From Synergistaceae bacterium (GTDB lineage: Bacteria; Synergistota; Synergistia; Synergistales; Aminobacteriaceae), in the NCBI GenBank assembly GCA_017446055.1, contig JAFSRQ010000066.1, positions 1 through 57,820 of the forward strand: DNA of 57,820 nt, written 5' to 3'. Below, one piece after another: positions 1,534 through 19,643 of the stretch. The first letter of the stretch is position 1; each line of letters begins with the position of its first letter. A program made the translations under genes and the position numbers. The notes under the pieces were generated by a model. That model saw nothing but the letters and a program-made list of their open reading frames with translations. It was not told the DNA's origin and ran no database searches.

Positions 1534-3612
1534 ATGGGGGTACGCAAACCCGAAGACACTCGGAGCTTCGCACTGTGCGCACACGGCGGAGCAGGCAAGA
1601 CCTCACTCGCTGAGGCAATGCTTTTCGACAACGGCAACATCACACGCATGGGCAGTGTCCAGAACGGAAACACTGTCAGCGATTTCCAGTCCGAAGAACA
1701 GAAGCGCAACATCTCCATCTCAACATCACTCCTCACACTCGAACGCAAAGGAAAGACATTCTACGTCCTCGACGCTCCCGGCTACGCAGACTTCACCGGC
1801 GAAATGAGCGCAGCAATCCGTGTAGCAGACACAGCGGTAATCCTCGTGAGCAGTGTGGGCGGAATCGAGGTCCAGACCTCCAAGGCATGGGAATACGCCG
1901 AGCATCACAGCGCGCCCGTGTCATTCGTGGTCTCCAAGATGGACAGGGAAAACGCAGACTTCGAGAAAGTTCTTGACGACATCAAATCACAGTTCTCACA
2001 GAACGCGCTTCCTGTGTTCCTGCCGATAGGTGCGGGCGAAAAGTTCACGGGAATCGTCGACGTTCTCAGGGGCAAATCCTACACGTACAAGCCGGATGGT
2101 TCAGGCAAATTCACTGAGGGCGAAATCCCCGCTGACCTTGCGGACGAGGCAGCCTCCGCGCGTGAAGCACTCGTTGAAGCCGCCGTTGAGATGGACGATG
2201 AGCTGATGGAGAAGTACCTTGAGGGCGAGGAAGTGTCAGAAGCGGACTTTGAGCGCACACTCAAGACCGCCATAGCCGCGAAAAGAATCATGCCCGTTTT
2301 CGCCCTGTCAGCAACCGCCAACATCGGAGTGCCTCAGTTCATGGACTTTGTCGCCGACTATTTCCCGTCTCCTGTTGACATCGGAGCTGTTGACGCTGGG
2401 GACGTTAAGGCCGAACCCAAGACTGACGCGCCTTTCTCCGCACTGTGCTTCAAGGTCATGGCCGATGCTTTTGTGGGTAAGCTGTCATTCATCCGCGTGT
2501 ATTCGGGGACTCTCTCGTCAGAAGGAAGCAGCATCTACAACATCGACAAGGGCGAAGACGAGCGCATATCCTCCTTCAAGCTCATGACGGGCAAGGACGG
2601 AAAGGACGTGAAGGAAGTCATAGCGGGCGACATCGTGGCAATCCCGAAACTTCAGAGCGCAAGAGTCGGCCACACCCTCGCGACAAAGGGCGGCTTCTCC
2701 GGAAAATTCCCAGCGATAGAGTTCCCGAAGCCTGTCTACAGTGTCGCCGTAATCGCAAAGACCCGCGCAGATGAGGACAAGCTAGGTTCGGCAATTTCAC
2801 GAATCCTTGAGGAAGACTGCTCGCTCACCTTCGAGAAGAACGCAGAGACCCGCGACAACGTATTATCCGGCATGGGAGATATGCACATCAACATAGTACT
2901 CTCCAAGCTGAAGGAACGCTACAACGTCGACCTAGACACCAAGACCCCGCAAGTACCTTACCGTGAGACGATACGCAAGATGTCAGAAGCTCAGGGCAAG
3001 CACAAGAAGCAGTCCGGCGGTCATGGGCAGTACGGAGACGTGTACATCAGGTACAGGCCGTTGGAGCGCGGCGAGGGCTTCAAGTTCATCGACAGCGTAG
3101 TAGGCGGTGCAGTGCCGAGGAACTTCATCCCGGCGGTCGAGAAGGGACTCCGTGAGTACATGGTTGCCGGGCCTCTGGCGGGATTCCCGGTCGTGGACTT
3201 CAGCGCGGAGCTGTACTACGGAAGCTATCACGATGTCGACAGCTCTGAAATGTCGTTCAAGCTCGCAACACGTCTCTCATTCCGCAAGGGTATCATGGAC
3301 GCTAACCCGGTACTGCTTGAGCCTGTGATGGACGTTGAGGTTACTGTGCCTGACCAGTTCATGGGTGATGTCATGGGGGACTTCAACAGCAGGCGCGGGC
3401 GTGTTATGGGCATGGAGGCTCACGGGAAATTGCAGGTCGTGAAGGCTCAGGTGCCGCTGTCGGAGATGTTCAGGTATGCTACTGACTTGCGGTCTATGAC
3501 TTCTGGCGAGGGGTCATTCTCGATGGAGTACTCGCACTATGAGGAAGTTCCGGGAGACATCGCCAAGAAGGTTATTGCCGCCCACAAGAAGGAAGAAGAA
3601 GACGAAGAGTAA
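1534..3612 (+). CDS. EF-G-like translational GTPase (EF-G2/FusA2 type)
   Basis: The 692-aa protein begins MGVRKPEDTRSFALCAHGG. ATG 1534 is chosen over GTG 1522 because GGGAAGG (1516-1522) then lies 11 nt upstream. The G domain shows the P-loop AHGGAGKTS (residues 16-24), a DAPGYADF G3 motif in place of DTPGHVDF, and SKMD for the usual NKxD. EF-G domains II-V follow, including the HGQYGDV and YHDVDSSEMSFKLA stretches of domains IV/V. Length and domain order match EF-G, but the altered motifs place it with the auxiliary EF-G2 group rather than the main translocase, which normally sits in the str operon. Its exact role is unresolved. Confidence 0.88.
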   Translation: MGVRKPEDTRSFALCAHGGAGKTSLAEAMLFDNGNITRMGSVQNGNTVSDFQSEEQKRNISISTSLLTLERKGKTFYVLDAPGYADFTGEMSAAIRVADTAVILVSSVGGIEVQTSKAWEYAEHHSAPVSFVVSKMDRENADFEKVLDDIKSQFSQNALPVFLPIGAGEKFTGIVDVLRGKSYTYKPDGSGKFTEGEIPADLADEAASAREALVEAAVEMDDELMEKYLEGEEVSEADFERTLKTAIAAKRIMPVFALSATANIGVPQFMDFVADYFPSPVDIGAVDAGDVKAEPKTDAPFSALCFKVMADAFVGKLSFIRVYSGTLSSEGSSIYNIDKGEDERISSFKLMTGKDGKDVKEVIAGDIVAIPKLQSARVGHTLATKGGFSGKFPAIEFPKPVYSVAVIAKTRADEDKLGSAISRILEEDCSLTFEKNAETRDNVLSGMGDMHINIVLSKLKERYNVDLDTKTPQVPYRETIRKMSEAQGKHKKQSGGHGQYGDVYIRYRPLERGEGFKFIDSVVGGAVPRNFIPAVEKGLREYMVAGPLAGFPVVDFSAELYYGSYHDVDSSEMSFKLATRLSFRKGIMDANPVLLEPVMDVEVTVPDQFMGDVMGDFNSRRGRVMGMEAHGKLQVVKAQVPLSEMFRYATDLRSMTSGEGSFSMEYSHYEEVPGDIAKKVIAAHKKEEEDEE

Positions 3613-3621
3613 CAGTAACAG

Positions 3622-3652
3622 ACTCCCTCCTGACATTTTGCCGGGAGGGAGT
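3622..3652 (+). terminator. Possible terminator after the EF-G-like gene
   Basis: A perfect 9-bp stem ACTCCCTCC/GGAGGGAGT encloses a loop of about 13 nt, 10 nt after the stop codon. The tail TGTTC is poor in T, so termination may be weak or the hairpin may serve another purpose. Confidence 0.45.
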
Positions 3653-3691
3653 TGTTCACATCATGAAGAAAGGAAGTTGACACAAGAGAAG

Positions 3692-4540
3692 ATGACAGCT
3701 ATAATATCCAGTCCAGTCCAGTCCAGTCCAGTCGCTGACTCTGCACATTCAACCAGCAAAGTAATCATCATCGGCAAGAATCATCATCATACACTCTCTG
3801 TAGCTAGGGTATTCGGCCTCAACGGGATAAAGCCCTATGGTATTGTCGTGGGAAAAGGCGCGAAATTCGGGTTCGTTAGGCGTTCGCGCTGCTGGCAAAA
3901 AGTTTGGGGTGTGAATGATGAAGTCGGCATGACAGAGATTCTCCGCCGCGAGTTCCAGAACGAGACACTCAAGCCCGTAGTCATTCCGTGTTCTGACCCC
4001 GAAGCAATAGCACTCGACAACAATCTTGACGAACTGAGCAAGAGGTACATTCTCGGCAGCTTCAATCACGAGCAGGGCAGAATCCCTCAGCTTATGGACA
4101 AGTTCGCGCAGGTGGAGTTCGTGAGAGACAGACTCGGCCTCGATATGGCTGAAAGTTTCATCATTGACCTTACTGGCGGAAATATCCCGGACGCTCTACC
4201 GTTCCCCTGCCTCGTCAAGCCAGTAGTCAGCGCAGAGGGCAGCAAGGGCGACATCAGGAAGTTCACCGACAAAGACAGCCTCCGTGAATATTTCGGCACT
4301 CTTAGGGCTAAGGGCTACACTAGGATTCTTGCGCAGAGGTTTCTGGATATAGATTACGAGTTCTGCCTGTCCGGGTGCTGCGGGGATATAATATCGTACT
4401 TTGTCTCAAAAACTGTCAGGGCCTGGCCTAATGTCGGGGGACTGGATGCTGGGATAAAGTCATGGATGAGCCGGAAATTCATGAACTATGTATCAATATG
4501 CTTAAGAAAATTTCTGACGCAGGGTATTCGGGACTCATAG
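3692..4540 (+). CDS. ATP-grasp protein, N-terminal part (frameshifted gene)
   Basis: The start is ATG 3692 (MTAIISSPVQSSP); the conserved fold begins at KVIIIGKNHHHTLSVARVFG, a pre-ATP-grasp Rossmann-like domain. The ATP-grasp segment LPFPCLVKPVVSAEGSKGD carries the nucleotide-binding Lys. After RAWPNVGGLDAG the frame turns into non-conserved sequence and stops at 4540. The rest of the same domain continues in another frame from about 4459, so one gene of about 420 codons is broken by a -1 shift between roughly 4442 and 4461. The N-terminus is encoded by a TCCAG repeat. Relatives ligate carboxylate to amine, often in polysaccharide or peptide modification; the substrate is unknown. Confidence 0.7.
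   Translation: MTAIISSPVQSSPVADSAHSTSKVIIIGKNHHHTLSVARVFGLNGIKPYGIVVGKGAKFGFVRRSRCWQKVWGVNDEVGMTEILRREFQNETLKPVVIPCSDPEAIALDNNLDELSKRYILGSFNHEQGRIPQLMDKFAQVEFVRDRLGLDMAESFIIDLTGGNIPDALPFPCLVKPVVSAEGSKGDIRKFTDKDSLREYFGTLRAKGYTRILAQRFLDIDYEFCLSGCCGDIISYFVSKTVRAWPNVGGLDAGIKSWMSRKFMNYVSICLRKFLTQGIRDS
3707..3731 (+). repeat. Pentanucleotide repeat TCCAG x5 within the 5' coding region
   Basis: Five perfect TCCAG units, followed by a partial TC, lie 15 nt after the chosen ATG of the ATP-grasp gene. The unit is not a multiple of three, so gain or loss of a unit shifts the reading frame. With five copies the ATG 3692 frame enters the conserved domain. Confidence 0.9.
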
Positions 4541-4953
4541 ACATAGAGTTATTTAAGGCCGGGGACAAGATATACTTATGCGAAATCAACTGGCGGGACA
4601 GCGCAAGAGTCTTCATGTGCAAAGGGACAAAAGTATACTATCCATTGATTTGGTATTACTCGGTTACAGGCCAGGACGATAAGATTCACGGTCTCCCTCT
4701 CACCACAAAGGACACATCGCAGTACGGAATGTGCGAGCAGGTCGACATACGCCACGTTTTTCACTCCGAACCCGGCTTCCCGCGCATCAATCTCCGTGAA
4801 TGGCTCGGCGATGTCAGGAAGGCACAAAGTTTCGCGTACTGGCATAATGACGACAAGCTCCCGGCGTTGTGGAGTTACCCGAAAGATTTTGTCTCAGCCA
4901 TTCTCCCGCATTCCATGAAAGATTTCATCAAGCGCATAATCGGCAGGAAGTAA
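4462..4953 (+). CDS. ATP-grasp protein, C-terminal part (frameshifted gene)
   Basis: The frame opening at ATG 4462 encodes 163 aa and completes the preceding gene: MDEPEIHELCINMLKKI, then GYSGLIDIELF and YLCEINWRDSA, the metal-binding Glu/Asn strand of ATP-grasp enzymes. It overlaps the upstream ORF by 79 nt in another frame. No ribosome site stands before ATG 4462, so independent expression is doubtful. A single-base deletion, a sequencing error, or -1 slippage at the A-AAG at 4456-4459 would each explain the break. The conserved residues on both sides argue the break is recent or artefactual. Confidence 0.65.
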   Translation: MDEPEIHELCINMLKKISDAGYSGLIDIELFKAGDKIYLCEINWRDSARVFMCKGTKVYYPLIWYYSVTGQDDKIHGLPLTTKDTSQYGMCEQVDIRHVFHSEPGFPRINLREWLGDVRKAQSFAYWHNDDKLPALWSYPKDFVSAILPHSMKDFIKRIIGRK

Positions 4954-6291: not shown

Positions 6292-6419
6292 ATTACTTAG
6301 CCGCAAGGTGGAATCAGTCCGGCAAAATCCGAAAGATTTACGCAGTTTTTTTCGCTGGACATTAATTATAATTATGGCAAATTTCACAATGACACAAAAT
6401 TTTTCTGGAGGCTGTACCT

Positions 6420-8543
6420 TTGAGGCTGAAAAAATTTTCCGTAGCAATCTTCATCCTCTTTGTTTCTGCAACTTCACTCTATGCTTCGGGCATTTACGAC
6501 TCTGATCCGGGCTTCTCGCCTTATTACGCAGGGTCGGTGAAGAGCAGTGTGCTTAGTGATGCATTGTCCGAGCTGAACTATATACGCTGGCTTATTGGCG
6601 TTCCGAACAATGTCGTCCTCGACTCCGAATACACACGAAAAGCCCAGCACGGCGCGGTTCTCCTTGACGCTATTGACACGATTACTCACACACCCGGCAG
6701 GCCTTCAGACATGAGCGAGTCATTCTACGAGCTAGGCTATGACGCAACTACCCACGGGAATATAGCCCTCTCGAAAATCTACAGCGGCTCAGAATCACAC
6801 GGCAATATCACCCTGAGTTACAGCACGAAAATGTACATGGACGACTCTGACAGCTCGAACATTTCAGCGTTAGGCCACAGAAGATGGCTCATGAATCCCC
6901 GCATGAAACGCACGGGCTTCGGCATAAGCACTCGCAGGGGCTATGAGGTTACGTATGTCATTGAGGAGTTCGGAGACGACTCTGACGTTCTGACTCAGGA
7001 AGAATATTCACGCTATCTTGAGTGGCTCAAGTGGCCGGTTTCGGACGAATATATCACATGGCCGACCGGAAAACACCCTCACCCCCTCACGTATTTTGAC
7101 GCTGGCACGGCATGGTCTGTTACGCTCAACAGCAATGTGTTCGACAAATGCAACGCCTCATCAGTCAGAGTGAGTCTTGTCCGTGTGTCTGACGGAAAAA
7201 CGTGGAACTTCGGTTCTTCATCCGGCAGCAGCGGATACTACAACATAGCTCCCAACAATGTGGCTTATGATGAATGCATAATCTTCCGGCCCGATGGTGT
7301 GTCAGCCTACAACAGCGGAGAGACTTGGCGAGCGGAAATTTCCGGCCTCACACGCAAGGACGGCGGCGCGGGAAATATATCGTTCACAGTAACATTCACC
7401 GACAGCTCCACAGGCTACGAGGAAGACAGGCCATCACCAACACCGAATCAGCCAACACCGAATCAGAATGGCAGAAGCGATTCAGAAAGCGGAGGCTGTG
7501 AGTCAGGATTGGGATTCATGGCTGTGGTTGCTGTGATTGTGTTACCGGGAATCAGGCGGAGGAAGTCAGCTGCTCTTCTTGCTGTGACTGCCCTGTGCGT
7601 GATTGCTCTCCCGGTTTTTGCTGACGATGATATATACATCACCAAGCCGGGATTTTCACCCTACAGAGCCGGAACAGTGAAGCGTGAAGTCCTGTATGAG
7701 GCACTCGCTGAGGTCAACCGCGCCCGCCGCATAGCAGGAGTCCCCGACAACGTAACACTGAATGACGAATACACCCGCCGCGCACAGATGGGAGCAGTGC
7801 TTCTTGACGCAACAGACATACTCACGCATACCCCCTCGAAGCCTCACGACATGCCGCAGGATTTCTACGAGCTGGGCTATGACGCGACATCACACGGCAA
7901 CATCATGTACTCGAAATTGCGCAGAGGCTCAAAGTCTTGGGGGAATGTGAATCTCAGGGACACGACAAAAGGCTATATGGAGGACACTGACGGGCATAAT
8001 GTCGGCGCATTAGGTCATAGGAGGTGGCTGCTCAATCCCAGACTCAAGCAGGTAGGTTTCGGGATCAGCACACGCAGGGGCTACTCTGTTACGTATGTGA
8101 TAGAGGACTTCCCGCTCAAGAAGAGGAAACTGTCACGTGCGGAATACGCGCAATATCTAAACTGGCTGAAGTGGCCGATTGCTGACGAGTTCATCTCGTG
8201 GCCGTCGTCAAAGCACCCTCATCCGCTGGACTGGTTCGAGGCAAAAACGGCGTGGTCAGTAACGCTCAACAGCAATGTGTTCGGCAAGTGCGAGCCTGAG
8301 AGAGTCAGCGTGAGAATGACCCGGCTTAGTGACGGAAGGGTCTGGAACTTTGGCCGGGCCGGGAATGACGGGTATTTTGCGGTCTGCCCGGACAATGTAG
8401 CTTATGACGAGTGCCTGATATTCTGCCCGGATGACATCAAGAGTTACAGCAATGGGGAATATTGGCGCGTTGAGGTTGATGGTTTGACGCGGAAGAACGG
8501 CGGCGCAGGGAGCTTCACGTACACGGTGAGCTTCACGCAATGA
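6420..8543 (+). CDS. Fused double CAP-domain secreted protein with internal Synergist-CTERM
   Basis: TTG start at 6420 with GGAGG 8 nt upstream; 707 aa. The order is signal peptide (FSVAIFILFVSATSLYA), CAP/SCP-like domain 1 (ALGHRRWLMNPRMK), linker with TPNQPTPNQ, a Synergist-CTERM tail (SGGCESGLGF..., Cys360, then RRRK at 379-382), a second signal-peptide-like stretch (AALLAVTALCVIALPVFA, 384-401) and CAP domain 2 (ALGHRRWLLNPRLK). The two halves are clearly paralogous, sharing for example WSVTLNSNVF and GFGISTRRGY. The sequence reads as two tandem genes joined in frame, the stop after RRRK having been lost. Copy 2 has no CTERM of its own. CAP domains are extracellular; the bacterial function is usually unknown. 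Confidence 0.88.
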   Translation: MRLKKFSVAIFILFVSATSLYASGIYDSDPGFSPYYAGSVKSSVLSDALSELNYIRWLIGVPNNVVLDSEYTRKAQHGAVLLDAIDTITHTPGRPSDMSESFYELGYDATTHGNIALSKIYSGSESHGNITLSYSTKMYMDDSDSSNISALGHRRWLMNPRMKRTGFGISTRRGYEVTYVIEEFGDDSDVLTQEEYSRYLEWLKWPVSDEYITWPTGKHPHPLTYFDAGTAWSVTLNSNVFDKCNASSVRVSLVRVSDGKTWNFGSSSGSSGYYNIAPNNVAYDECIIFRPDGVSAYNSGETWRAEISGLTRKDGGAGNISFTVTFTDSSTGYEEDRPSPTPNQPTPNQNGRSDSESGGCESGLGFMAVVAVIVLPGIRRRKSAALLAVTALCVIALPVFADDDIYITKPGFSPYRAGTVKREVLYEALAEVNRARRIAGVPDNVTLNDEYTRRAQMGAVLLDATDILTHTPSKPHDMPQDFYELGYDATSHGNIMYSKLRRGSKSWGNVNLRDTTKGYMEDTDGHNVGALGHRRWLLNPRLKQVGFGISTRRGYSVTYVIEDFPLKKRKLSRAEYAQYLNWLKWPIADEFISWPSSKHPHPLDWFEAKTAWSVTLNSNVFGKCEPERVSVRMTRLSDGRVWNFGRAGNDGYFAVCPDNVAYDECLIFCPDDIKSYSNGEYWRVEVDGLTRKNGGAGSFTYTVSFTQ

Positions 8544-14554: not shown

Positions 14555-17500
14555 CTAACGTCTGCGGAGTAGGGCGAAGAATAACAATGCTGACATTGCG
14601 GAGAATGGCGTGGATGAACTGCAAGTGCTATTGGAGCTGTTGATGTCGGTGTCTGGGTCTGGTTCGGGTTCTGGGTCTGGCTCTGGTGGTTCTGATATGG
14701 TGATGGTGAGCTGCTTTGTCGCCGAACGTGTTCCAGATGATGCCTTCACGGTGAAGGTTGACCTTCCTGCGCTTGTGGGAGTCCCTGAGATTGTCCCGGA
14801 GCTGCTCAGGCTGAGTCCGGCAGGAAGAGTCCCTGATGACACAGACCAAGTCGCCCCCGAAAGATTAGCCGCAAGTGTCGCCAAGTATGACGCGCCTACT
14901 GTCCCGGAAGGAAGGCTAGCTGTCGTGATACTGAGGTCTTCCGCAGGCGGAGCGGTTATCACGAGCGTTAAGGTTTCACTGTCAACCCCCGCACTATTCC
15001 TAGCAGTTACTGTAACACTGTATCTTCCTGCTGCTGTGGGAGTGCCTGAGATTGTGCCGCTGCTGTGAGTCAGGCCGCCGGGGAGTCCTGTTACAGTCCA
15101 CGTTATAGGAGTTGAGCCGTTTGCTGTGAGCGTCTGCGAGTACTGAGTGCCGACTGTGCCGCTTGCGAGGCTCGTTATCGTGATTGTGGGGGCTGTCGCG
15201 GACGGTGTCGGGCCATCATATGATGATACGGTGATGTTGAACTCCTTTGTCGCAGAACGTGCGCCGGATACAACCCTTATTGTGAATGCTGATGTGCCTG
15301 TGCTACCCGGAGTCCCTGATATTCTCCCGGTTATGGGATTGAGTGTGAGTCCGGCAGGAAGATTACCTGATGCCACAGACCATATTGCGCTCGCGGCATT
15401 ACACGCCAGAGTGGCCGAGTATGACGCGCCTGCTGTCCCGGAAGGAAGGCTTGCTGTCGTTATCGTGAGCGTACCGGGGGTAGGAGGTGTAGGTGTTGGG
15501 TCTATTGGGTCTCCGTCTATCACAAGCTGGAGATTCTTGGACACTGTAGCCTTACTGTTTGAGGCTGATATGCTTACGGTGTAAGTCCCGGGGGTTGTCG
15601 GAGTGCCTGAGATTCTGCCGCTGCTTTGAGTCAGGCCGTCAGGAAGCCCCGTTACCGTCCATGTTATTGGCCTTGTTCCTATTGTCGCGAGAAACTGCGA
15701 ATACTGAGTGCCGACAGCCCCGGAAGGAAGGCTCGCTGTTATGATTGACGGTGAGATTTGCGTAGCCTTTCTCGCAACGGGGAACGCCTTTATGCTGGCA
15801 GTGAGTGATACTTCCCCGTTTGTCGTCTTATAGCTGCTTCCGTTCTTCCAGTCTGTAGCTTCCGTGATTGTTTCAGCACGGGCAAACCAGCTTCGTCCGG
15901 CTTTGTATGCTGACAAGTTGACAATGTACGAGTTATCTTTTGCCGCCATTGTAAGATAGCCGCTGTATGCTTTTGATGAGGAAAGTTTTACCATGACAGC
16001 AAAATATTCGCCCGATCTCACGTCTATCGGATTGTCCAGCTCTACAGTGTGGTATCCTACATAATCAAGCGTCCCGGTTTTGACGGGGCTGCCCTGCGGA
16101 ACTCCCGGTCCATAATTAGGAAAAGTCATCCCCAGCTTGTTCACGTACACTTCATAATGCATGTCAGGAGCTGCCGTGCTGAACGACACTTCATTGAGCG
16201 ACTCTGTGTTTTCAGCCTTGAAGATGTTTGCTGACCAATGATCCTTTATAGGTTCTGTTGCCGCTGCGGTGTCATGCGCGTAGGGCGTGTTGCTTACGGC
16301 ACTGTCATCTGCCACGAACACCGAACAATCGTGCATTTCCTGCTCATACGAAATCCAGAAATAGCCGTCCCCGTTGCTTGCTTTAGGCCAATCATCGCCC
16401 CATGAGTTTTTGGCGAGCCATGCACCGTTAGCACTGGGCTTTGTCGTACCGTCAACGATGGATCTCGTCTTGAAGTTGTCGCTCGAATAATTGTCATCCC
16501 ACCCGACAAGGATTACAGCATGTCCGCCGTCATTAGGTGTCATTTCTTGATTCAGCACATCCGGCGCGTAGTAATTGATGCCTTTTTCATATCTGGAAAA
16601 GTGTTTGTACCCAATCCTTACGGCACCGTAGTCCATGATGAGATGCTTTATTCGGTCGCTCTGGCTTCTTAGGTCACTCTCGTAAGCCCTGTTACTTCGC
16701 AGAGCAGTATTGTACGTGAGGTTATACGCTGCCTTTAGCCTGAGCGGATGCCGGAAATCTTCAGGATAAATTACGTTCGCAGGAATTTTTGAGGCAACAT
16801 AATCTGCGACATTCTTATCTGTTTCCTCTACACTTTTGCCTTCAGTACCGCGAACCCCCTCGTAAGGAAGATCTGCTTCTGAAGCAGTTCCAATCCTAGA
16901 CAAAAAGGTTATAGCTTTTTCACTAGTTCCTCCCTGACTGAGTACATATTTTTGGGAATCCAGTTCTCTGGAATAGCCCTGTCTGGAATCCTTGTAGGTG
17001 TACCACGCTAGATGAAGCTCAGAAAGGTCAGGTGCCTCGCTGCCAAAACCCTGCGCTACATAGCTGGCCTCCATTGCTCCGATTGCCGCGAAAGCCCAGC
17101 ATGTCCCGTAAGGACTCTGATCACCGACGCGAAGAGACCTGTGGTCATTCCCGGGTTCCCTGGGGTCATATTTGGGGAGTGTGTAGTCGTAATGAGCCTG
17201 CGGAAGATTACTGTTCAGCAGCGCATAATCAACAGGGCTGGGAACATACCCGAAAACCGCGCTTTCAGACTGATCGCCCGATATATAGCGCAGGTACTCG
17301 TCAGAATACGGTGCTGTGTCAACTGAGACGGGCTCCCACTCGCAGATAAATCCGCTGGGGTAAAGCTCATGCCATCCCTCAAATTTTCCGTCTTCCGTTA
17401 TTTGCAGGTAGACTTCTTCAGGGAGCTTCCGTTTCACACGCCGTATAAGCTCAGACTGGCCGCCTGCTGTAGACCTGATTATGCTTATGTTGTAGACATC

Positions 17501-19309
17501 ATGAACGTCATCTTCAGCTATCTCATCCGTGAAGTCAGAGCCGTCATCCCAGTGCCACACCTCATTGCTGTCCCGGCCTCCTCCAAGCCAGTAGCCTCCT
17601 GACGAGCTGTCCCCGGCCAATTTTGACATCCTTATGAGTTCCCGCGCAAGACTCTTCACATCATTTGACGCAAGAACAGCAAGATGACCGCCCAGAGAAT
17701 CACAGAAAGATTTAGCTTCCTCCCAGCTCACAGCGCGGTTGTATGCCCGGTAAACATGGCCGTTAAGCGCAAGGGAGACAAAATCCTCTTCCCCTATTAT
17801 TACGTCCATGTTCACGCCGGAATGCCCGGTGCTGTACGAGTAGCGCACTCTCAAGGGTGAGAGTCCGAAACTGGCAGTGCCTCCGCTGTACGTTGTCTCA
17901 ACTTCCGCGCCGCTCTCGTCAAAGCCCTGAACGCTTGAAGCAATGACATTCCCCATGCCGGAGGATGACATATACCCGCTGAAGTCCATCGTGAATGGGT
18001 ATTCATTTCCGTCATGCCTGACAATGTCGAGTCCGCTGATAATCTGCGGCCCGGTTATAACGTGCATGTTCAGGAAATTCACCGTTACTACTCCGTAAGG
18101 CGTGCTCACACTTAGGGACTTGGGGGCGTTGTCCGAGCTCAGGAAAATATTGCCGCTGAGATCAAGTTCCGCAAGGCTGTTGTTCTGAATCTCAAGGTCA
18201 TAGAGATTCCTGTTGCCGCTGAGATTTATTTCTGTGATGTTATTGTTGCCACACCTGAGATGCTGAAGGGAGTAATTCCTGCTGACATCAAGCCCCGAAA
18301 GCCTGTTGCTGTTTGCATAGAGCATCACAAGATTCACCAGCTGGCTCACGTCAATTTCTTCGAGCTGGTTGTTGCTGAAGTTGACCGTCTTAAGCCCCGC
18401 GCAGCCCTGAAGATTGACATTCACAAGCCTGTTGTCGTGGCAGTCAAGATTCCAGAGCTTGCCGCACCCGCTCACGTCAAGAGAGACAAGAAGATTCGTG
18501 TTGCACTTCAGGTCGTACAGCTCCGAATGCCCGCTCACATCAAGCCCCCTCAGCCTGTTGCCCTGAACGTCAATTGTCCAGAGATTCGTACAGCCGTCAA
18601 CGTTAATGCTCGTCAGCAAATTGTTGGGACTGTGAATGTGATTGAGGGACGTACAACCTGAGGCGTTGAGAGATACGATATTGTTCATGTTGCAGTCAAA
18701 GGTCGTCAGGTATATATGATTGCTCACATCAAGCGTCCTGAGATCATTTGCCCAGCAGGCCAGCCTCTTGAGCTTCATGTTCCCGCTGAGGTCAAGCTCT
18801 TCAAGAGTGTTGATACAGCAGGAAAGCTCCTCAAGGTTCGTGCAGCCAGTAACATCAAGCCTCGTGAGCGCGTTCGTGTCGCAGTTCAGGTACACAAGCT
18901 CCGTTAATCCGCTGACATTGAGAGAAGTGATGCTGCAGTCCTTGCAGTTCAGATACCGCAGCTTCTTGTTCCTGCTGACATCGAGTTCTGTAAGAAGCGG
19001 ATTGTTGCGGCAGTCTATCGATACCAGCTCTGTCAGGTACTCAACGCCCTTCATTGATTCCATTCTGATTGTTCCTTTGTTACCCGTGAATCCGGGCTTG
19101 TTAAAGATGTCGACAGCAGCAATCTCTTCATCACTCAGCCAACCGTCTTTGTTGCCGTATTCATCAGGCTTATCACAATCTGCTTGGATGTAGTACCTGA
19201 ACAGGTCATCAGGAAAATTATCTTTGTTGATTTCCACGATATTCACAGCCGCCCAAGCTCCCGAAGCCATAACGCACACGAGCATTACGGCGCATAATAT
19301 TTTCCGCAT
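14555..19309 (-). CDS. Giant surface protease: LRR, C-type lectin, papain-like, Ig-like repeats
   Basis: ATG 19309 begins a clean signal peptide (MRKILCAVMLVCVMASGAWA); the longer frame to 19381 is unlikely. The protein is 1584 aa. The order is an EF-hand-like start (DKPDEYGNKDGWLSDEE), about 14 leucine-rich repeats of the LDVSGCTNL type to around residue 400, a C-type-lectin-like domain (about 515-657), and a C1/papain-family peptidase. The peptidase has GTCWAF with Cys737, GGHAVILVGW with His930 and AKNSWG with Asn968. Next come a lectin-like beta domain, four He_PIG Ig-like repeats (SGTPT signatures), a DPEPEPD spacer and a degenerate Synergist-CTERM tail (Cys, hydrophobic stretch, RRR). 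The catalytic set is complete, so an active surface cysteine protease is expected. Confidence 0.9.
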   Translation of the reverse strand: MRKILCAVMLVCVMASGAWAAVNIVEINKDNFPDDLFRYYIQADCDKPDEYGNKDGWLSDEEIAAVDIFNKPGFTGNKGTIRMESMKGVEYLTELVSIDCRNNPLLTELDVSRNKKLRYLNCKDCSITSLNVSGLTELVYLNCDTNALTRLDVTGCTNLEELSCCINTLEELDLSGNMKLKRLACWANDLRTLDVSNHIYLTTFDCNMNNIVSLNASGCTSLNHIHSPNNLLTSINVDGCTNLWTIDVQGNRLRGLDVSGHSELYDLKCNTNLLVSLDVSGCGKLWNLDCHDNRLVNVNLQGCAGLKTVNFSNNQLEEIDVSQLVNLVMLYANSNRLSGLDVSRNYSLQHLRCGNNNITEINLSGNRNLYDLEIQNNSLAELDLSGNIFLSSDNAPKSLSVSTPYGVVTVNFLNMHVITGPQIISGLDIVRHDGNEYPFTMDFSGYMSSSGMGNVIASSVQGFDESGAEVETTYSGGTASFGLSPLRVRYSYSTGHSGVNMDVIIGEEDFVSLALNGHVYRAYNRAVSWEEAKSFCDSLGGHLAVLASNDVKSLARELIRMSKLAGDSSSGGYWLGGGRDSNEVWHWDDGSDFTDEIAEDDVHDVYNISIIRSTAGGQSELIRRVKRKLPEEVYLQITEDGKFEGWHELYPSGFICEWEPVSVDTAPYSDEYLRYISGDQSESAVFGYVPSPVDYALLNSNLPQAHYDYTLPKYDPREPGNDHRSLRVGDQSPYGTCWAFAAIGAMEASYVAQGFGSEAPDLSELHLAWYTYKDSRQGYSRELDSQKYVLSQGGTSEKAITFLSRIGTASEADLPYEGVRGTEGKSVEETDKNVADYVASKIPANVIYPEDFRHPLRLKAAYNLTYNTALRSNRAYESDLRSQSDRIKHLIMDYGAVRIGYKHFSRYEKGINYYAPDVLNQEMTPNDGGHAVILVGWDDNYSSDNFKTRSIVDGTTKPSANGAWLAKNSWGDDWPKASNGDGYFWISYEQEMHDCSVFVADDSAVSNTPYAHDTAAATEPIKDHWSANIFKAENTESLNEVSFSTAAPDMHYEVYVNKLGMTFPNYGPGVPQGSPVKTGTLDYVGYHTVELDNPIDVRSGEYFAVMVKLSSSKAYSGYLTMAAKDNSYIVNLSAYKAGRSWFARAETITEATDWKNGSSYKTTNGEVSLTASIKAFPVARKATQISPSIITASLPSGAVGTQYSQFLATIGTRPITWTVTGLPDGLTQSSGRISGTPTTPGTYTVSISASNSKATVSKNLQLVIDGDPIDPTPTPPTPGTLTITTASLPSGTAGASYSATLACNAASAIWSVASGNLPAGLTLNPITGRISGTPGSTGTSAFTIRVVSGARSATKEFNITVSSYDGPTPSATAPTITITSLASGTVGTQYSQTLTANGSTPITWTVTGLPGGLTHSSGTISGTPTAAGRYSVTVTARNSAGVDSETLTLVITAPPAEDLSITTASLPSGTVGASYLATLAANLSGATWSVSSGTLPAGLSLSSSGTISGTPTSAGRSTFTVKASSGTRSATKQLTITISEPPEPDPEPEPDPDTDINSSNSTCSSSTPFSAMSALLFFALLRRR

Positions 19310-19643
19310 GAGATATATTCCCCTTTCCAGAAATGTTTTGCCTTGCCTGAAGACCCGGTAATGAGTCACAGACAGTAACATTGCGCTTTCTTCCGGGGAT
19401 GGATTTATGGAGGGTGTTCCTTTTTGCGTGAATGATGGTTAAGCGGATGGGATAATTCCGAATCAGTGTCAGGAAATTTCAGACAATAAGAGCTAATCTG
19501 CTTTGCTCAATTATGGCGGCAAATTGCATTTTGTCAACCCTCTTTGTGCTGAATTTATGCTGAGATACTGAGGATGTAGTGTAAATGTTATAATAGCAAA
19601 ATCCATTTGGTTTTTCCACAGAATTTATTGCGCGCTGGGAGTG
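19310..19643. other. Intergenic region with no gene seen
   Basis: Between the protease gene (minus) and the antitoxin remnant (plus). The minus-strand AAGGGGAATATATCTC before 19309 holds the protease ribosome site. An extended -10 element lies at 19586-19594. I see no further supported gene or structured RNA. Confidence 0.5.
19586..19594 (+). promoter_or_regulatory. Extended -10 promoter element upstream of the TA remnant and galK
   Basis: TGTTATAAT matches the TGnTATAAT extended -10 consensus. No good -35 box is present. It could drive the remnant and galK. Confidence 0.45.

Follow-up and report, generated by a model that had tools for sequence, protein, structure and literature searches.

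Two CAP proteins in one reading frame, joined by a sorting tail and a signal-peptide-like segment: a candidate export polyprotein of Synergistaceae

The 57,820-nucleotide contig JAFSRQ010000066.1 of a Synergistaceae bacterium (assembly GCA_017446055.1), analysed here over its full length and called the window, carries on its forward strand a gene in which two CAP-domain proteins, half A and half B, share a single open reading frame (ORF; Table 1). The initial annotation of this DNA had noted that a sorting tail composed of SGGC, a hydrophobic stretch and RRRK is followed without a stop by a signal-peptide-like segment and a second CAP domain, and had read the protein as an in-frame fusion of two secreted proteins in tandem. 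Translation of 6420-8543 bears out this layout: SDSESGGC, ESGLGFMAVVAVIVLPGI, RRRK, SAALLAVTALCVIALPVFA and DDDIYITKPGFSPY follow one another in one frame, and the junction, hereafter the hinge, contains neither a stop nor a new methionine. The hinge has the tripartite organization of a Synergist-CTERM signal, with a GGC-type motif, a hydrophobic helix and a basic cluster. Unlike a standard Synergist-CTERM, its tail does not lie at the extreme C-terminus, since 325 residues follow RRRK.

Table 1. Features of the CAP fusion gene (window coordinates)
Feature	Positions	Strand	Description
Ribosome-binding site	6407..6411	+	GGAGG, a Shine-Dalgarno sequence 8 nt before the TTG start; found by reading and scoring
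Whole ORF	6420..8543	+	707 aa, TTG start, stop 8541-8543; frame equally open in G010, G004 and G001
First signal peptide MRLKKFSVAIFILFVSATSLYA	6420..6485	+	cleavage site placed by eye
Half A	6486..7413	+	CAP domain, then Ig-like beta-sandwich; Pfam CAP, fold by homology to half B
Pro/Asn/Thr-rich linker	7414..7481	+	upstream of the sorting tail
SESGGC signature	7482..7499	+	invariant Cys codon 7497-7499; GGC in 18/18 hinges
Hinge hydrophobic segment 1 ESGLGFMAVVAVIVLPGI	7500..7553	+	18 aa, sorting-tail membrane helix
RRRK	7554..7565	+	basic turn shared by the sorting-signal tail and the presumed n-region of the second signal peptide
Hinge hydrophobic segment 2 SAALLAVTALCVIALPVFA	7566..7622	+	ends in PVFA, presumed signal peptidase I site (A|D)
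Half B	7623..8540	+	CAP and Ig-like (CopC-like) domain, without a sorting tail of its own

The Pfam CAP model (PF00188) matches two stretches of the whole protein (E 6e-14; 53.3 bits against a gathering score of 21.1) and matched all 24 related half-proteins tested. In a structure model of half B based on 24 sequences (pLDDT 90), the first part is predicted to align with the CAP proteins GAPR-1 (Z 12.4 over 128 residues, root-mean-square deviation 3.7) and Pry1 (Z 10.7), and the last ~118 residues to resemble CopC-type beta-sandwiches (Z ~9.3 over ~95 residues). A model of the whole protein from four sequences was uninformative (pLDDT 39), and a comparison of the CAP profile with the sequences of solved structures gave a single doubtful match.

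Among 100 related genomes searched, the whole stop-free fusion is present in three of the same genus, with identities to the window protein over the full alignment of 73% (G010), 70% (G004) and 69% (G001). Records of the full fusion that carry a name come from an uncultured Fretibacterium metagenome-assembled genome (MAG) and from two MAGs of goat foregut Synergistaceae. These full-length orthologues support the reading of two secreted proteins fused in frame, and a stop after RRRK, which the initial annotation had named as the sign of an assembly error, was looked for and is absent from all three. In each of the six pairwise comparisons among the four genomes, purifying selection acts on both CAP halves (nonsynonymous divergence, dN, 0.11-0.25; synonymous divergence, dS, 1.08-2.5).

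All CAP loci compared adjoin the same periplasmic-binding-protein gene, and most also adjoin the same minus-strand gene. At this site most genomes carry half A alone, mostly with a terminal tail; half B stands alone, without a tail, in G040 and G030; B and then A occur as separate genes in G003; and A and B are fused in the window genome, G010, G004 and G001. The first ~100 nt of the CAP gene of G040 match A and the remainder matches B, and in the tree its half B groups with that of the window (SH-aLRT 95). Judging from this pattern of matches, a deletion between the two repeats likely left B behind the signal peptide of A. Because B survives alone in that position, we regard half B as an exported unit. 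The fused CAP halves form no clean clades in the tree.

Beyond what had been annotated, the junction recurs in 19 cases, and in it one basic block appears to serve both signals. A search of the 100 genomes with a five-row hinge profile yielded 20 stretches that were read, of which 15 were internal hinges and five ordinary terminal tails; the 15, together with the four CAP fusions, make up the 19 hinges. An 18-row model was then run on 81 genomes of the family and 185 of the phylum. Its 18 training rows are the 19 hinges minus G039:C51, a near copy of G022:C10, and divergent hinges may escape it. This model returned the same 19 hinges, all stop-free, at 45.0-62.8 bits, each covering 44-45 of its 45 positions; the next-best match (39.5 bits) covers the tail part only. 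The hinges lie in 12 of the 185 Synergistota genomes, ten of them among the 43 genomes of the source genus and the remaining two from two further genera, one apiece, within the same family. With the 18-row model none was found in other Synergistota families among the best candidates, up to 38 per genome, of the 185 genomes, and no full-length hinge was added to those of the first profile among the best up to 38 per genome in the phylum and up to 88 per genome in the family.

The protein pairs joined in this manner are of at least six kinds. The downstream unit is CAP half B in four cases and a family of ~370 residues starting near SDYTLPI in ten, one of them frameshifted; the others are a protein with LRR, C-type lectin, papain-like and lectin-like domains (two near copies), a beta-helix protein (one) and two more. 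A further Gly-Cys-type tail closes each of the nine SDYTLPI-type second units that are unbroken. The anatomy of the hinge is constant, with a first hydrophobic segment of 15-20 aa, a turn of 2-7 aa containing 2-5 K/R, and a second segment of 15-23 aa (borders set by eye). The second segment occupies the position of true signal peptides in unfused homologues of other hinge proteins, and its median Kyte-Doolittle hydrophobicity, 2.74, compares with 2.68 for 11 N-terminal signal peptides of the same proteins, with borders again set by eye. Applied to 279 distinct ORFs taken from the fetched loci, a simple hinge rule matched 18 times, versus 2 in 20 rounds of shuffling, a test that gauges composition rather than frequency, as the loci were partly chosen for their hinges and hinges less than 100 residues from the ORF end were not counted. 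Internal tails are a small minority: the Synergist-CTERM model TIGR04564 lists 585 tails across the genus at E up to 3, chance matches included, and ~3% of them are internal.

Some members of this set merit separate description. The SDYTLPI-type family (second halves of L084 and L088-L095) consists of secreted proteins in which a hydrophobic stretch is followed by the Gly-Cys-type tail; L093, the sole member scanned, received no Pfam name, and at least partial relatives occur in 14 of the 43 genomes of the genus. The hinge of L096 (G057:C77), from another genus, joins two similar halves that both start with related repeat-rich sequence, and is the only hinge with a methionine at the turn. In L085 (G005:C47) the fused ORF ends 122 residues past the hinge start, ~360 nt after the hinge, and homologous sequence continues in another frame, indicating a frameshift, either real or made in assembly.

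Three genomes encode the SDYTLPI-type unit by a gene of its own, directly behind a tail-bearing gene. The junction in G014 (L111) reads LRKGRNA, TAA, ATG AGG, in the same frame and with 0 nt of spacer, the next gene starting with ATGAGGAAA; that in G028 (L109) reads TAA C ATG, with a 1 nt spacer; and in G041 (L107) the genes overlap by 8 nt. More broadly, the fetched loci contain 73 distinct terminal tails, of which four have a signal-peptide gene overlapping them or no more than 1 nt from their stop, and a fifth has one 27 nt away. Since unfused pairs are spaced by 0-1 nt or overlap, the fused form is reachable with very little loss. The initial annotation had proposed a search for the unfused pair: pairs with a stop directly before the next start were found in this other family, and the CAP pair was found unfused in the B-then-A order of G003. 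On a tree of SDYTLPI-type domains the distribution of fused and unfused forms needs two label changes, of which starred branches force only one (L110, whose start lies outside the fetched stretch, is omitted from the count, and the frameshifted L085 is not in the tree).

The source genome, which is 85% complete, has a single match to PF02517 (CPBP protease), and this protein is MrtS, the cognate protease of Synerg-CTERM tails (241.4 bits with NF040589; cut-off 130). An assignment of the same protein to MrtX was rejected (50.1 bits with NF040593 against 180). Of 16 tails listed in this genome, 11 show the GGC motif, ten at the C-terminus and one, that of the CAP fusion, internally.

Taken together, we think that the CAP fusion is probably a genuine export polyprotein from which the hinge is cut out, so that two proteins are exported. 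The topology, the cuts, the lipidation and the final locations of the halves that we infer are as follows. Half A would be exported by Sec behind the first signal peptide until the helix of the sorting tail halts in the membrane, leaving RRRK in the cytoplasm. RRRK would double as the n-region of the internal signal peptide; the chain would then turn back and half B would be exported in its turn. MrtS, on analogy with the myxosortase MrtX, would cut at the end of SGGC, and half A would probably be held on the surface through its cysteine, which may be lipidated. Signal peptidase I would free half B by cutting after PVFA. Between the two cuts a membrane hairpin of ~41 residues would be lost, and the CAP proteins would be produced 1:1.

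Several observations speak against this interpretation. In most pairs of genomes the hinge evolves faster than the CAP halves (dN 0.20-1.03 for linker and tail, 0.07-1.0 for the second signal), and because its sequence changes fast, any constraint would lie on its character rather than its sequence; despite the drift it retains GGC and a basic turn. The window tail scores only 14.1 and 14.5 bits with TIGR04564, below the curated cut-off of 22.5. The -1/-3 site of the second signal peptide was picked by eye. All four CAP orthologues have an ATG, GTG or TTG codon 13 residues past the cysteine. Finally, in the myxosortase study MrtX was tested on C-terminal tails (PMC11980579), and MrtS would have to act on an internal one. 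As described there, MrtX, a related myxosortase, cuts MYXO-CTERM tails in Myxococcus xanthus and when co-expressed in E. coli, in a cysteine-dependent manner (PMC11980579). The TIGR04564 cut-off is passed by only two of the 16 tails listed in the source genome. Of the other hinges scored as fragments, L084 reached 26.3 bits and L088 30.2 bits, the orthologous hinge of G010 gave 25.1 bits as a fragment and 19.9 in a whole-protein scan, and L094 and L095 gave no match with this model.

These weak scores of source-genome tails would suit an uncut, tethered pair, with the hinge acting as a plain transmembrane hairpin and both CAP domains facing the periplasm in one membrane-anchored protein, a topology that requires no protease. 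We consider this unlikely, given that GGC and the basic turn are kept in 18 of 18 hinges while the rest drifts, that the same joint occurs in unrelated protein pairs, and that other hinge proteins have unfused homologues which are secreted as proteins in their own right. The start-type codon past the cysteine raises a different prospect, that ribosomes also, or chiefly, initiate within the tail to make half B. The unfused pairs are indeed tightly coupled, and in two of the three (L107 and L111) Arg codons of the tail supply AGGAG or AGGA before the next start. Start-type codons are, however, frequent in hydrophobic stretches, and the one past the cysteine has no Shine-Dalgarno match in any of the four CAP orthologues. 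For in-frame ATG, GTG or TTG codons before or within the basic block, none of the 18 hinges has a Shine-Dalgarno match of at least 5 nt and four have one of 4 nt; the N-terminal starts of the hinge proteins have at least 5 nt in 12 of 13 and at least 4 nt in 13 of 13 (five of the 18 proteins were omitted, with their start outside the fetched stretch or unchecked). Moreover, there is no in-frame stop that could drive re-initiation, and the hinge of L093 lacks any in-frame start-type codon before or within the basic block. Internal initiation therefore appears quite improbable.

An origin of the joint as a neutral gene fusion, in which a stop was lost between tightly packed export genes and the signals fitted by chance without any gain, deserves more weight, and we would put it somewhat short of an even chance. 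Few changes would suffice, as the near-abutting or overlapping unfused pairs illustrate, and the A, B, B-A and A-B arrangements all occur at one syntenic site. Against it, the stop is not all that the hinges have lost: a methionine at the turn is present in just one of 18, and one basic block (2-5 K/R) stands where the unfused genes have one each, which is more trimming than plain stop loss predicts. Neutral fusion concerns why the joint arose and not how it works, and it is compatible with the polyprotein reading. That the fusion is an assembly or sequencing error or a pseudogene is hardly credible. The assemblies are fragmented, those of the named genomes being metagenome bins, and one hinge ORF (L085) is frameshifted downstream; yet the same open frame occurs in four separate genomes with purifying selection on both halves, and for the CAP fusion the three full-length, stop-free relatives rule out an assembly error.

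Two further loci of the window were noted. At 14555-19381 on the minus strand lies a gene for a 1608-aa protein with LRR, C-type lectin, papain-like, lectin-like and Ig domains, which ends in a terminal tail, NSTCSSSTPFSAMSALLFFALLRRR, and a stop; a similar set of domains is spread across the hinge in the G022/G039 polyprotein. On the plus strand the overlapping ORFs 3539-4540 and 4462-4953 appear by eye to be one ATP-grasp-like gene split by a frameshift, and neither has a Pfam match.

To our knowledge, polyproteins with internal signals are familiar in viruses and uncommon in bacteria. In the structural polyproteins of enveloped RNA viruses, a stop-transfer helix precedes an internal signal peptide that is cut by signal peptidase; these polyproteins differ in using the eukaryotic endoplasmic reticulum and in having no sorting-tail protease. 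The cytochrome b/c1 precursor FbcH of Bradyrhizobium japonicum, for which our literature search gave no match, is split in two at an internal signal sequence, and differs in lacking a sorting tail. Closer to the hinge is HVO_0405 of Haloferax volcanii, a fusion protein that was found experimentally to be cut by the archaeosortase ArtA at a central sorting site (PMC7157517). It shares with the proposed polyprotein a sorting-site cleavage inside the protein, and differs in being archaeal, in its protease and in being described there as strain-specific (PMC7157517). The cutting of HVO_0405 by ArtA is thus an experimental precedent, from a different system, for cleavage of an internal sorting tail. 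In Myxococcus xanthus, MXAN_5598 bears a rare internal MYXO-CTERM thought to derive from gene fusion, and the study that describes it proposes that its N-terminal part is processed and surface anchored and argues that such tags work in mid-protein (PMC11980579). It resembles the CAP fusion in having a sorting tail within the ORF, and MrtX and MrtS are both CPBP-type proteases; it differs in being a single case whose second half is an outer-membrane beta-barrel/OmpA protein. The same study describes an overlap of the sorting-tail gene with the next gene in the TraA/TraB pair of this organism (PMC11980579), which resembles the unfused L107 pair and differs from the hinges in comprising two unfused ORFs. 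The term Synergist-CTERM was not found in the open-licence papers searched. Internal sorting tails are thus already known as single cases; within that literature, which did not include the main Synerg-CTERM paper, what is new is the shared turn, its reuse by protein pairs unrelated to one another, and the unfused intermediates.

On balance we lean slightly towards a broader view, that Synergistaceae possess a class of surface polyproteins in which one compact hairpin combines an upstream sorting signal with a downstream signal peptide over a shared basic turn, and in which two membrane proteases excise the hairpin to give equimolar surface proteins, the joint being reusable for unrelated secreted proteins. 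The 19 natural cases and their unfused sister genes make it testable whether CPBP sorting proteases need a free C-terminus and where exactly they cut, questions that terminal tails answer poorly; cleavage at an internal tail would appear as a large size change on a blot. If the broader view is correct, this class would yield either one anchored and one free product, as in the CAP pair, or two tailed products, as in the SDYTLPI-type pairs. The hinge set shows how adjacent export genes can merge while both of their address labels persist.
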